Below are positions 3,936-47,427 of a DNA stretch of 64,000 nucleotides, piece by piece. The position numbers and the translations under genes are program-made. Within the stretch, counting starts at the first letter, position 1, and the number at the start of each line of letters is the position of its first letter. This DNA comes from Motilibacter peucedani (lineage in GTDB: Bacteria > Actinomycetota > Actinomycetes > Motilibacterales > Motilibacteraceae). Below the pieces are notes generated by a model. That model was not told the DNA's origin, did not search any database, and saw only the letters and a list, made by a program, of their open reading frames with translations. The stretch covers positions 372,001 through 436,000 of the forward strand of contig NZ_RBWV01000010.1 of the NCBI RefSeq assembly GCF_003634695.1. The letters are read 5' to 3'.

Positions 3936-3957
3936 CGTCGGCCACACTGCGTCGGAA

Positions 3958-4368
3958 GTGAGCAGCGCCGTGGCTGAGCGGCCGGTGCGGGGCGGCGGCC
4001 GGGAAGGCCATGCCCCGCCCGGCTGGCCTGCAGAGGTACGCCCGCCGGGGGCTCCCGACTGGGAGCGCACGGCGGTCGGCTGGCTGCTCGACCTGTGCCC
4101 GCCGGACTACCGGGCCTACGAGGTCCTGCGCCGCCACCCCGCCGTTCTCGCGCGCTTCGCCGCCGTGCACGTCGAGGCGGCGGTGGAGGGCGCCCGGCGC
4201 GGGCTCGCCCACGCGCGCGAGGACCTGCGCGACGTGGTGCCGCCCGAGGCCCTCGAGGCGGCGGTGCAGGCCTACGAGCGCGAGGGTGCGCGGCTGCTCG
4301 CCACAGGGCGCGCGGTGCTGCTCGTGGAGCAGGCGCTGCGGGGTGGCCGGTTCGTGCCCAGACTGTGA
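3958..4368 (+). CDS. Small conserved actinobacterial protein of unknown function
   Basis: About 136 residues. After a Pro/Gly-rich, probably disordered N-terminus of 35 residues, it is predicted mostly helical: WERTAVGWLLDLCPPDYRAY followed by VLRRHPAVLARFAA and a long amphipathic stretch rich in Ala, Arg and Glu. It has no signal peptide or membrane segment and no domain I can name. It starts only 22 bp after acnA on the same strand, so it may be read from the aconitase transcript. The start is uncertain: GTG 3958 or GTG 3970, neither with a strong ribosome-binding site. Confidence 0.7.
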   Translation: MSSAVAERPVRGGGREGHAPPGWPAEVRPPGAPDWERTAVGWLLDLCPPDYRAYEVLRRHPAVLARFAAVHVEAAVEGARRGLAHAREDLRDVVPPEALEAAVQAYEREGARLLATGRAVLLVEQALRGGRFVPRL

Positions 4369-42695: not shown

Positions 42696-43718
42696 ATGGC
42701 CTCACCGTTCACCGAGGTCGAGGTCGGTGACCGTGTCGTCAAGGTGACCAACCCCGACCGCGTCTACTTCAGCGCCCGTGGCGAGACGAAGCTCGACCTC
42801 GTCAACTACTACCTCGCGGTGGGCGACGGGATCGTGCGCGCGCTGCGCGAGCGGCCATGCATGCTGCAGCGGTTCCCCGAGGGCGCCGAGGGCGAGAAGA
42901 TCTACCAGAAGCGGGTGCCGACCTCGCACCCCGACTGGCTGCAGACCGTACGCGTCAAGTTCCCCAGCGGTCGGCACGCCGACGAGCTGTGCGTCACCCA
43001 CCTCGCCGACGTGGTGTGGTGCGTGCAGATGTCGACGGTCGAGTTCCACCCGTGGCACTCCCGGCGCGCCGACACCGAGCGCCCGGACGAGATGCGCATC
43101 GACCTCGACCCGCAGCCGGGCACCGACTTCGACGACGCGCGCCGCGTGGCGCTCGAGGTCATCAAGCCGATGCTCGACGAGCTCGGCTGGGTGGGCTGGC
43201 CCAAGACCAGCGGCAACCGCGGCATGCACATCTACGTGCGCATCGAGCCGACCTACGAGTTCACCGACGTGCGCCGCGCTGCCCTGGCCTTTGCGCGCGA
43301 GGCCGAGCGGCGGGCGCCCGACCTCATCACCACCAAGTGGTGGAAGGAGGAGCGCGGCGAGCAGATCTTCGTCGACTACAACCAGAACGCGCGCGACCGC
43401 ACGATCCGCTCGGCCTACTCCGTGCGGGCCTCGCCCGACGCCCGCGTCTCGACACCGCTGACATGGGGCGAGCTGGCGCACGTCGACCCGACGTCGTTCA
43501 CCATCGCCACCGTGCCTGCGCGCTTCGCCGAGCTCGGCGACGTGCACGCCGGCATCGACGACGTGGCGGTGGGCATCGACCCGCTGCTCGAGTGGGCCGA
43601 GAAGGACGCGGTCGACCGCAAGCTCGAGGACGCGCCCTACCCGCCCAACTTCCCGAAGATGCCGGGTGAGCCGTCACGCGTGCAGCCGAGCCGCGCGAGG
43701 AAGCCCGCGAGCGACTAG
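42696..43718 (+). CDS. LigD-type DNA polymerase/primase domain protein
   Basis: Stand-alone polymerase of the archaeo-eukaryotic primase fold used in bacterial non-homologous end joining, 340 residues. It opens with KVTNPDRVYFSARGETKLDLVNYY broken over the family start. The metal-binding pair is Asp136 and Asp138 in MRIDLDPQPG, and GNRGMHIYVRI holds the His-containing nucleotide site. It adds nucleotides, preferring ribonucleotides, at broken ends. A separate LigD-like ligase is encoded 1.7 kb away; no Ku gene is present in the window. Its stop shares CTAG with the convergent YihY gene. Confidence 0.92.
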   Translation: MASPFTEVEVGDRVVKVTNPDRVYFSARGETKLDLVNYYLAVGDGIVRALRERPCMLQRFPEGAEGEKIYQKRVPTSHPDWLQTVRVKFPSGRHADELCVTHLADVVWCVQMSTVEFHPWHSRRADTERPDEMRIDLDPQPGTDFDDARRVALEVIKPMLDELGWVGWPKTSGNRGMHIYVRIEPTYEFTDVRRAALAFAREAERRAPDLITTKWWKEERGEQIFVDYNQNARDRTIRSAYSVRASPDARVSTPLTWGELAHVDPTSFTIATVPARFAELGDVHAGIDDVAVGIDPLLEWAEKDAVDRKLEDAPYPPNFPKMPGEPSRVQPSRARKPASD

Positions 43719-44710
43719 TCCTGCTTGTCGAACGTCACGTCGACCTGCTCGAAGCCCTTGCTGCGAGCGGCTTTCGCGGTGCCGGTGTAGGTCTTCTCGT
43801 CGCCCGGGGTCAGGTCCACGTCGTCGGTGAACGGCGTGAGCAGCGCCCGCGGCCACAGGCGGTCGACGCGCACGACGTTGATCTCGGCGCACAGCACGGT
43901 GGCGGCCGACGCGAGGTAGAGGAACGCGAGCAGGCCCAGCACGACCGCGAACAGGCTGTTGACGGCGCTGGCGCTGCGCACGACGTGCGAGACGTAGGTG
44001 GCGCCGAAGCTCTGCAGCAGCTGGTAGACCACGGCCGCGCACACCGCCCCGGGGATGACCTGCCGGATGGTCAGCGACCGGGTCGTCGCGTGCCGGAAGG
44101 CGAGGACGAAGACGCCGGTGTTGACCACGACCGAGCCGGCCACGAAGCCCGCGCGCACGACGAGCTGCCACCACGTACCGTGCCCCTCGGTCAACGCGCC
44201 GGCGCCGGCCGCCAGCGACGAGAGCACCGCGGTCAGCGCCACTGCGACCCCTGCGGTCGCGAGCAGCGCCAGTCCGCGGAGGCGGGCGAGGAGCGGGTTC
44301 GGCCGGTTGTTGCGCGGCACCTGCCACACGGTGTTCATGGCGTTCTGCACGGCCTGGCCGATGCCGAGCCCGCCGTACAGCGCGCCGAGCAGTCCGATGA
44401 CCAGACCGGTCGGGCCGCCGCCGATGCCGGCGGGGTTCTCGTCCAGCTGCTGGCGGGCGATCGGGAACTGGTGCAGCGCCGAGCCGACCACGGCGTCACG
44501 TGCCGACGCGTCGCCGGCGAGGACGAAGCCGGTCACGGTCGAGAGCAGCAGGAGCAGCGGGAACAGGGAGATGAAGCCGTAGTAGGTGATCAGCGCGGCG
44601 AGGTAGGGGCCCTGGTCGTCGGCGTACTTGTAGACCACAGCGATGGGCAGGCCCAGCGCGGGGCGGCGCTGCTGCAGCCGGTCGAGGCGGGCGGAGAGCG
44701 GCACGGGCAC
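43715..44710 (-). CDS. YihY/virulence factor BrkB-family membrane protein
   Basis: An integral membrane protein of 331 residues with about six helices. The family core is seen in YKYADDQGPYLAALITYYGF and SLFPLLLLLSTVTGFVLAG, then GALYGGLGIGQAVQNAMNTV in the middle and LLAFLYLASAATVLCAEINV near the end. The transport substrate of the family is not established. I start at GTG 44710, with GGAG 7 nt upstream, where family members normally begin; GTG 44746 would add 12 residues. The tail is charged. Confidence 0.88.
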   Translation of the reverse strand: MPVPLSARLDRLQQRRPALGLPIAVVYKYADDQGPYLAALITYYGFISLFPLLLLLSTVTGFVLAGDASARDAVVGSALHQFPIARQQLDENPAGIGGGPTGLVIGLLGALYGGLGIGQAVQNAMNTVWQVPRNNRPNPLLARLRGLALLATAGVAVALTAVLSSLAAGAGALTEGHGTWWQLVVRAGFVAGSVVVNTGVFVLAFRHATTRSLTIRQVIPGAVCAAVVYQLLQSFGATYVSHVVRSASAVNSLFAVVLGLLAFLYLASAATVLCAEINVVRVDRLWPRALLTPFTDDVDLTPGDEKTYTGTAKAARSKGFEQVDVTFDKQD

Positions 44711-44767
44711 CTTCCCACTCCGGTCACGTCGTGTGACAAAGGGCACGGTTCCCCACCGGCGCCGCGT

Positions 44768-44793
44768 GGAATCACACTGTCAGTAGCGCTGTT
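44768..44793 (+). promoter_or_regulatory. Sigma-R/SigH-type promoter for the micropeptide unit
   Basis: GGAAT at 44768-44772, exactly 18 bp, then GTT at 44791-44793. This matches the Streptomyces sigma-R (disulfide stress) consensus GGAAT-N18-GTT. Transcription would begin near 44800, about 30 nt before the micropeptide start. Confidence 0.6.
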
Positions 44794-44830
44794 GAGCATC
44801 ACAGACGCCGCAACACGAAGGGGGAGTGCC

Positions 44831-44911
44831 ATGATCGACACCGTGGAGATGCACGAGGCCGGCTCCGAGGAGATCGTGCTCGTCGCCAACCCGAAGCGCA
44901 TCCGCCTCTAG
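44831..44911 (+). CDS. 26-residue micropeptide with its own promoter and terminator
   Basis: A short reading frame (starts MIDTVEMHEAGSEEIV, ends NPKRIRL) preceded by the purine-rich AAGGGGGAG, a strong ribosome-binding site 4 to 5 nt before the ATG. The first half is acidic and the last seven residues are basic; there is no signal peptide, cysteine or membrane segment. A sigma-R-like promoter lies 38 bp upstream of the ATG and a perfect terminator 17 nt after the stop, so it is a complete tiny transcription unit. I know of no homolog; the function is unknown. Confidence 0.6.
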   Translation: MIDTVEMHEAGSEEIVLVANPKRIRL

Positions 44912-44927
44912 CTCGTCCTCCGCTCCC

Positions 44928-44960
44928 AGAGCCCCGCAGCCACGACGGCTGCGGGGCTCT
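44928..44960. terminator. Strong bidirectional terminator hairpin
   Basis: AGAGCCCCGCAGCC (44928-44941) pairs perfectly with GGCTGCGGGGCTCT (44947-44960) around ACGAC, followed by TCT. It lies 17 nt after the micropeptide stop, and 28 nt beyond the stop of the minus-strand Usp-like gene, so it may end both transcripts. Confidence 0.85.
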
Positions 44961-45463: not shown

Positions 45464-46546
45464 TCAGGCTCCCGACAGCACCTCGCCGAGGTCGTAGCTC
45501 ACCGGCACCTCGAGCTGGGCGTAGGTGCAGCTCTCGGGCGTGCGGTCCGGTCGCCAGCGGTTGAACTGCGCGGTGTGCCGGAAGCGGGTGCCTTCCATGT
45601 GGTCGTAGCGCACCTCCACCACGCGCTCCGGGCGCAGCGCCACCCACGAGAGGTCCTTGCCGGCGTTCCACCGCGACTGGGCGCCCGGCAGGCGGCCCTC
45701 GGCGTGCGCCTCTGCCTCGGCCCACTGCTGCCACGGGTGGCCGGTGGGGTCGTCCATGCGCAGCGGCGCGAGCTCCTCGACCAGCTCGGCGCGCCGCTTC
45801 ATCGGGAACGAGGCGGAGACGCCGACGTGCTGCAGCGCTCCGTCGGCCGCGTAGAGCCCCAGCAGCAGCGAGCCGACGACGTCGCCGCTCTTGTGCCACC
45901 GGAAGCCGGCGACGACGCAGTCGGCGGTGCGCTCGTGCTTGATCTTGAGCATCGCCCGGACGTCGGGCTGGTAGGCGGTCGCCGTCGGCTTCGCGACCAC
46001 GCCGTCGAGCCCGGCGCCCTCGAACGACTCGAACCAGCCCCGGGCCACCGACACGTCGTCGGTGGCCGAGGTGACGAATACCGGGGCCCGGGCTGCGCTG
46101 AGAGCCTGCGTGAGGCGAGCACGGCGCTCGGCGAAGGGCAGCGGCACCAGGTCGTCGTCGCCCAGGGCCAGCAGGTCGAACGCGACGAAGGAGGCGGGCG
46201 TCTCGGCGGCGAGCCGGTCGACGCGCGACTTGGCCGGGTGGATGCGCTGCAGCAGCGCCTCGAAGTCGAGGGTGTCGCCCGTCGCGCTCGGCACGATGAC
46301 CTCGCCGTCGACGACGCAGCGCTCGGGCAGCTGCTCGAGGACGGCCGCGACCACCTCGGGGAAGTAGCGCGTCAGCGGCCGCTCGTTGCGCGACCCGAGC
46401 TCCACCTCGTCGCCGTCGCGGAAGACGATGCAGCGGAAGCCGTCCCACTTGGGCTCGTAGAGGTAGTCCCCGGTCGGGATGTCCTTGACGGCCTTCGCGA
46501 GCATCGGCGCCACGGGCGGCATCACGGGCAGCTGCATGTCCGGCAT
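45464..46546 (-). CDS. ATP-dependent DNA ligase (LigC/LigD ligase-domain type)
   Basis: End-joining DNA ligase of 360 residues. The adenylated lysine is Lys33 in YEPKWDGFRCIVF; GSRNERPLTRYFPE, VVDGEVIVPS and GLDGVVAKPTATAY are the following nucleotidyltransferase motifs; KIKHERTADCVVAGF is the last. The OB-fold completes the C-terminus. It lacks the polymerase and nuclease parts of full LigD; the polymerase is encoded at 42696-43718. It probably repairs double-strand or nick ends. An in-frame ATG at 46537 is an alternative start. Confidence 0.92.
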   Translation of the reverse strand: MPDMQLPVMPPVAPMLAKAVKDIPTGDYLYEPKWDGFRCIVFRDGDEVELGSRNERPLTRYFPEVVAAVLEQLPERCVVDGEVIVPSATGDTLDFEALLQRIHPAKSRVDRLAAETPASFVAFDLLALGDDDLVPLPFAERRARLTQALSAARAPVFVTSATDDVSVARGWFESFEGAGLDGVVAKPTATAYQPDVRAMLKIKHERTADCVVAGFRWHKSGDVVGSLLLGLYAADGALQHVGVSASFPMKRRAELVEELAPLRMDDPTGHPWQQWAEAEAHAEGRLPGAQSRWNAGKDLSWVALRPERVVEVRYDHMEGTRFRHTAQFNRWRPDRTPESCTYAQLEVPVSYDLGEVLSGA

Positions 46547-46580: not shown

Positions 46581-46946
46581 GTGCACCGACTCGCACCAGG
46601 CCGGCGGACGCTGGCGTCGCTCCTCGCCACCTCGGGCGCGCTCCACTTCGCCCATCCCGAGCCGTTCGTGCGCATCGTGCCGCCGATGATCGGCCACCAG
46701 CGGACGTGGGTGTACGTGAGCGGTGCGGCGGAGCTCGGATGCGCGGCGGGTCTGCTCGCCCGCGGTCGCGTCCGCCGGGCGGCCGCTCTGTCCACGGCGG
46801 CCCTGCTCGTGGCGGTGTTCCCCGCCAACGTGTGGATGGCGTGGTCGGCGTGGCGCGACCGCCGGTCCGTGGCCTACCTGCTCGCCACGCTCGTACGCCT
46901 GCCGCTGCAGGTGCCGCTGGTCGCGGCCGCGCTCAGCGTCCGGTGA
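46581..46946 (+). CDS. Small four-helix membrane protein (DoxX-like)
   Basis: A 121-residue integral membrane protein with about four helices: LASLLATSGALHFAHPE, WVYVSGAAELGCAAGLLARG, AALSTAALLVAVFPANVWMA and LLATLVRLPLQVPLVAAALS. The Pro-containing H-F-x-x-P-E-P-F and WMAWSAWRD patterns match DoxX-like uncharacterised proteins. The GTG start lacks a clear ribosome-binding site. Its 3' end overlaps the convergent DinB-fold gene by 14 bp. Function is unknown. Confidence 0.72.
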   Translation: MHRLAPGRRTLASLLATSGALHFAHPEPFVRIVPPMIGHQRTWVYVSGAAELGCAAGLLARGRVRRAAALSTAALLVAVFPANVWMAWSAWRDRRSVAYLLATLVRLPLQVPLVAAALSVR

Positions 46947-47427
46947 CCCCGTCGACCATCTCGCGCAGGATGTCGGCGTGCCCCGCGTGACGGGCGGTCT
47001 CGCCGGTCATGTGGGCGAGCACCCACCGCAGCGGCAGCTGACGGCCGTCCACCGCTCGCGCCATGGGCGCTGCCGGGTCGTCGATCTCCCGGATGCGCTG
47101 GTCGCTCTCGGCGATGGCGGTGCGGTAGGCCTCGAGGACCTGCGCCACGCTCGCCGACCTGGGCGCCTCCATGGCCATGTCGGCCGACTCCTCGGGCACG
47201 TCAAGGCGGAGGTGGTAGCCGAACCAGTAGCGCTCGCAGCCGGTGAGGTGGTGGACCAGACCGAGCAGGGACGTGCCGCTGGGCACGCCGGGACGGCGCA
47301 GCTGCTGCTCGTCGAGCCCGGAGGTCTTCTTCAGCACGCTGGAGCGCACGAAGCCCAGGAACGCCAGCGCCACCTCCAGCTCGCTGCCGTCGGGGCGGGG
47401 GACCGGCTCGCGCTGCGACTCCGTCAC
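46933..47427 (-). CDS. DinB-fold (DUF664) metal-binding protein
   Basis: A 164-residue four-helix-bundle protein of the DinB/YfiT superfamily. A His pair lies in LVHHLTGCERYWFG and a third set in AHMTGETARHAGHADILRE, the three-histidine metal site of the family. Relatives are thiol-dependent S-transferases in actinobacteria (mycothiol or bacillithiol users) or of unknown role. It starts at GTG 47427 and follows the reductase gene on the same strand with a 9-bp gap. Confidence 0.85.
   Translation of the reverse strand: MTESQREPVPRPDGSELEVALAFLGFVRSSVLKKTSGLDEQQLRRPGVPSGTSLLGLVHHLTGCERYWFGYHLRLDVPEESADMAMEAPRSASVAQVLEAYRTAIAESDQRIREIDDPAAPMARAVDGRQLPLRWVLAHMTGETARHAGHADILREMVDGVTGR

Follow-up and report, generated by a model that had tools for sequence, protein, structure and literature searches.

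A 64-kb stretch of Motilibacter peucedani DNA (the window, that is, the whole stretch analysed) carries at 44768-44960 what we read as a free-standing, one-gene unit of the SigR regulon (the response to thiol-oxidative stress), encoding a 26-residue cytoplasmic micropeptide that would dock in trans through its C-terminal tail; we put the probability of this reading at about 0.55. Its promoter, its open reading frame (ORF), the conservation of the tail and the free-standing state of the gene rest on comparison among genomes, and peptides sharing this tail probably constitute a new family of stress micropeptides.

The ORF is unannotated in the window. An earlier note on this DNA had described a GGAAT-N18-GTT promoter, a strong ribosome-binding site (SD) and a 26-codon frame with an acidic front and a basic end; promoter and SD can be read directly (Table 1), and residue counts agree with the frame as described (five D/E among residues 1-14; K22, R23 and R25 near the end). 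The perfect 14-bp terminator of that note stands as a hairpin (-32.5 kcal/mol, z -6.5 on folding) but not as a canonical terminator, as the terminator scan did not call it because a U-run is absent on its 3' side. Likewise, the upstream neighbour is indeed yihY/BrkB (PF03631), whereas the 'Usp-like' label of the 152-aa gene on the other side finds no Pfam or NCBIfam match.

Table 1 Features of the micropeptide unit in the window and of related loci
Feature	Position	Strand	Basis or remark
SigR-type promoter GGAAT-N18-GTT	44768..44793	+	GGAAT 44768-44772, N18, GTT 44791-44793; exact match to S. coelicolor SigR motif
Predicted 5' leader, about 30 nt	44800..44830	+	Start point predicted from sequence
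SD AAGGGGGAG	44818-44826	+	Read in sequence; inside predicted leader
26-codon micropeptide ORF MIDTVEMHEAGSEEIVLVANPKRIRL, ATG 44831, stop TAG	44831..44911	+	ORF translation, syntenic homologues, tail-sharing ORFs elsewhere
Conserved C-terminal tail ANPKRIRL	44885..44908	+	Comparison with syntenic orthologues
Putative terminator hairpin, 14 bp perfect, loop ACGAC, no U tail	44928..44960	+	Folding
Convergent neighbour, 152 aa	44989..45447	-	Syntenic anchor; outside the unit
Second tail-bearing tiny ORF	L119 around 4181-4300	-	Motilibacter-genus genome
Second tail-bearing tiny ORF	L120 around 3940-4037	+	Motilibacter-genus genome
ORF with frozen synonymous sites, G002 and G004	L103:3500-3790 and L104:3205-3500		

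SigR-type promoter and regulon

GGAATN18GTT is the motif of S. coelicolor SigR (PMC2375139), and that of its M. tuberculosis orthologue SigH is GGAAYR-N17-18-GTT (PMC4803200). In all five genomes of the family (that is, G000, which contains the window, and the relatives G001-G004, of which G004 is Motilibacter deserti E257), profile searches place SigR (TIGR02947) beside RsrA (TIGR03988), both over the curated cut-offs. The site in the window is the only one there (0.15 expected), the G000 genome holds 22 against 2 for a reversed control pattern (an approximately tenfold enrichment), and the five genomes together hold 90 against 5 control sites. G003 has only 5 exact sites, whereas each relative has about 21; the consensus of the promoter may have shifted in that genome. 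Behind the G000 sites lie msrA, a trxB-like flavoprotein gene, dnaK, genes for two Clp ATPases (clpB/clpC-like) and thioredoxin, rpmE (ribosomal protein L31), rbpA, and genes for a glyoxalase and a DEAD helicase, which together read as a SigR regulon.

The -35 element of the micropeptide promoter reads GGAATC in G000, which calls for some caution in assigning it to SigR; the same C follows GGAAT at the msrA, dnaK and rbpA sites of this genome. At the syntenic loci, window included, the promoter is exact in three of four (G002 and G004 besides the window), and G001 departs from it by one mismatch (GGCAT-N18-GTT). With sigR and rsrA encoded, the motif enriched, recognizable target genes downstream of it and the promoter kept in relatives, the sigma-R promoter proposed in the earlier note is well supported at the level of sequence. 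The unit thereby resembles members of the S. coelicolor SigR and M. tuberculosis SigH regulons in its promoter and sigR-rsrA pair and in the genome-wide target set around it (msrA, trxB-like, dnaK, clpB/clpC-like, trx, rpmE and rbpA); a difference is that a 26-residue NP[K/R]R[V/I]RL peptide was not found as a reported target in the literature searched.

Conservation of the C-terminal end

A tblastn search with the whole peptide gave no match even in the same genus because conservation is confined to the tail; relatives were instead sought through gene order and through a tail pattern translated back into nucleotides. Orthologues were located by their position beyond the 3' end of the 152-aa gene, that is, independently of the peptide motif; the yihY neighbourhood was rejected as an anchor, given that no unit lies there in relatives and that yihY is a local insertion. 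In four of the five family genomes the syntenic place holds an ORF of 26-31 residues, convergent with the 152-aa gene and accompanied by an SD and a hairpin (G001, MGTRHDESDVRVCEQETSLANPKRVRL; G002, MEDAVRDAVLDLTTSEEPTTTGVANPKRVRL; G004, MEDAVRDAVLDLTTSEEPTTSGVANPKRVRL), whereas the unit is missing next to the anchor gene in G003, which may have a copy elsewhere that uses other codons. An AGGGGG-type SD stands at equal distance in G001, G002 and G004. All four orthologues end in ANPKR[V/I]RL as their last eight residues, their N-terminal halves being variable and acidic to the extent that the fronts of the three relatives hardly resemble that of the window peptide. Compared pairwise, G000, G001 and G002 show 2-4 synonymous changes in the codons of the tail; because the sole change at the protein level is I/V, the comparison indicates that selection acts on the C-terminal end of the micropeptide.

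The short-ORF homology proposed as a check by the earlier note is thus present in the family, and the pattern it had named as speaking against a translated micropeptide (a hairpin kept in relatives, frame and ribosome-binding site not) is the opposite of that observed, in which frame and SD are kept. The micropeptide is, by comparison, well supported as real. The same observations bear on the reading that the ORF is there by chance and that the SigR promoter drives a transcript amounting to antisense or 3'-end noise for the convergent gene: the ORF does face the 152-aa gene in four family genomes, but a tail maintained at the amino-acid level through synonymous change, a retained SD and independent copies at unrelated places leave this reading disfavoured and, in our judgement, extremely improbable.

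Tail-sharing ORFs in other genomes

When the back-translated tail-plus-stop pattern was scanned over 394 genomes of the class together with a reversed control, only the family of Motilibacter matched (0 of 389 genomes of other families; 0 control matches). G002 and G004 each carry a second tiny ORF, divergent from a MarR gene, that ends in LANPRRVRL; the G002 copy at this second locus has LLANP three times in tandem before RRVRL. Five matches came from 85,000 species genomes scanned by pattern. Two are real tiny ORFs, one in Motilibacter deserti and one in Sanguibacter suaedae (MNETDDQGRGIETGRDELRSVSNPKRVRL, preceded by an SD and followed by a hairpin); matches in Simkaniaceae and Lysobacterales were rejected, as their frames read through TGG with no stop, and one in Solobacterium lies at the edge of its stretch. 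An order-wide scan added the actinomycete G486 (MDDKSTPESSDVVIDVRSIDLTTVANPRRVRL), with SD, hairpin and GGATT-N18-GTT.

ORFs of fewer than 40 codons with an SD and a terminal NP[K/R]R[V/I]RL-stop thus occur in G000, G001, G002 (two), G004 (two), Sanguibacter suaedae and G486. The additional members recovered by motif searches end in [A/S]NP[K/R]RVRL-stop and were picked by this tail, so the tails they carry cannot count as separate support for conservation; independent evidence lies in their being short SD-led ORFs, mostly with hairpins. Because no convincing SigR site was found at the Sanguibacter copy or at the G002 and G004 paralogues, the link between tail and SigR is not exclusive. Searches for the micropeptide gave no match in viral contigs, plasmids or Pfam, none in the PDB at E up to 10, a best match at E 4 alone in phages and a single weak match for one member in NCBIfam (E 0.07); the literature searched held nothing relevant on NPKRVRL.

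Genomic setting

A LigD-type primase-polymerase gene (window 42696-43718) and an ATP-dependent ligase gene of the NHEJ type (45464-46546) flank the locus, and the placement of the micropeptide between polymerase and ligase genes is kept in G001, G002 and G004. In G000 only, yihY/BrkB (43715-44746) separates the polymerase gene from the micropeptide; in the relatives it lies elsewhere. A mycothiol-S-transferase-like gene (DinB fold, 46933-47427) is also close by, mycothiol being the thiol buffer of SigR-bearing bacteria. As the LigD-type polymerase, the LigC-like ligase and the 152-aa protein are common to the family of Motilibacter only, they make poor candidates for a general partner of the peptide.

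At seven of the eight loci (G000, G001, G002, G004, G486 and the two paralogue loci) the gene that follows is convergent, and a strong hairpin lies 3' of the ORF in G001, G002, G004, Sanguibacter and G486. A short ORF followed by a terminator-like hairpin would suit a leader peptide or attenuator acting in cis on a downstream gene; however, as those seven loci have no co-directional gene downstream, and as the co-directional gene of Sanguibacter starts about 215 nt farther on, cis attenuation is extremely unlikely.

Ribosome arrest is a related alternative, in which a K/R-R-x-R-L-stop end would stall the terminating ribosome and so sense antibiotics or translation stress. Such peptides usually regulate, in cis, a gene that lies downstream. 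As in TnaC and the Erm leaders, conservation here is restricted to the eight codons that immediately precede the stop, and the tail has an R-x-R motif that resembles the macrolide-dependent +x+ arrest motif. Antibiotics that inhibit translation are also reported to induce SigR (PMC4921905), which we count in favour of arrest. Against it stand the strong hairpin 3' of the ORF and, at seven of the eight loci, the convergent next gene, which make this a free-standing unit with a terminator and no downstream gene to regulate, and we regard arrest as quite improbable.

Possible constraint on the RNA

The main rival to a peptide acting in trans is a dual-function or plain regulatory RNA: a SigR-induced transcript would work chiefly through its structure or by pairing with other RNA, and the ORF would be secondary. 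The micropeptide transcripts are highly structured, and between G002 and G004 none of the 21 four-fold sites of the ORF differs, as against 35% in three neighbouring genes (P about 1e-4), with identity continuing through the first bases past the stop codon. Because these sites are frozen and the bases past the stop identical, the comparison points to an additional constraint in the genus Motilibacter, one that bears on the RNA; this evidence is suggestive only, because some 31-codon windows of neighbouring genes are as quiet (the quietest in LigC has 2 differences).

Across genera, by contrast, the coding of the tail alone is conserved at the nucleotide level, leader lengths vary from about 30 to 150 nt and the hairpins (compared in G001, G004 and Sanguibacter) are unrelated in sequence. 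No Rfam family exceeded its gathering score over the unit, and F6 sRNA was rejected as a hairpin resemblance below threshold (E 3.1). Stress-induced small proteins and dual-function RNAs are exemplified by SgrS/SgrT and SR1/SR1P, which likewise are short monocistronic stress transcripts with a small ORF and a terminator, yet their sequences are unrelated and the conserved part here is the C-terminal tail of the peptide. We consider a mainly RNA-level role unlikely, even as the leading alternative.

Proposed mode of action

Because the front is acidic and variable and the basic, fixed tail ends at the carboxylate, a docking peptide that acts in trans is the simplest reading. Signalling peptides that are modified or secreted (RiPPs or pheromones) could likewise have as precursor a tiny ORF with a variable front and a fixed C-terminal motif. 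The peptides lack both a signal peptide-like segment and a core rich in Cys, Ser or Thr, the loci share no linked maturase or transporter, and typical RiPP precursors conserve the leader and not the end, all of which argues against this option and renders it very improbable.

For the trans-acting peptide, we infer the steps from transcription and translation to docking, and the kind of partner, as follows. RNA polymerase carrying SigR would start near 44800, the ORF would be translated from its strong SD and transcription would end at the hairpin. The peptide would most likely act in trans. Its acidic front, which varies, would be a spacer or keep the peptide soluble, while the basic NP[K/R]R[V/I]RL tail, invariant and with its carboxylate free, would dock on a conserved stress-response partner (a protease/chaperone, or a component of RNA polymerase or the ribosome), which the docked peptide would then adjust during thiol stress.

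More broadly, and tentatively, we propose that these ORFs may represent an unrecognised family of actinomycete stress micropeptides with a free NP[K/R]R[V/I]RL tail, mostly under SigR control, that would dock on one conserved machine and tune it in disulfide stress, the mRNA perhaps also being a regulatory RNA in the genus Motilibacter. Gene callers and domain libraries miss proteins of this size. The eight-residue fixed tail is a short, synthesizable bait, and a pull-down of its target could reveal a new step in the response to disulfide stress.
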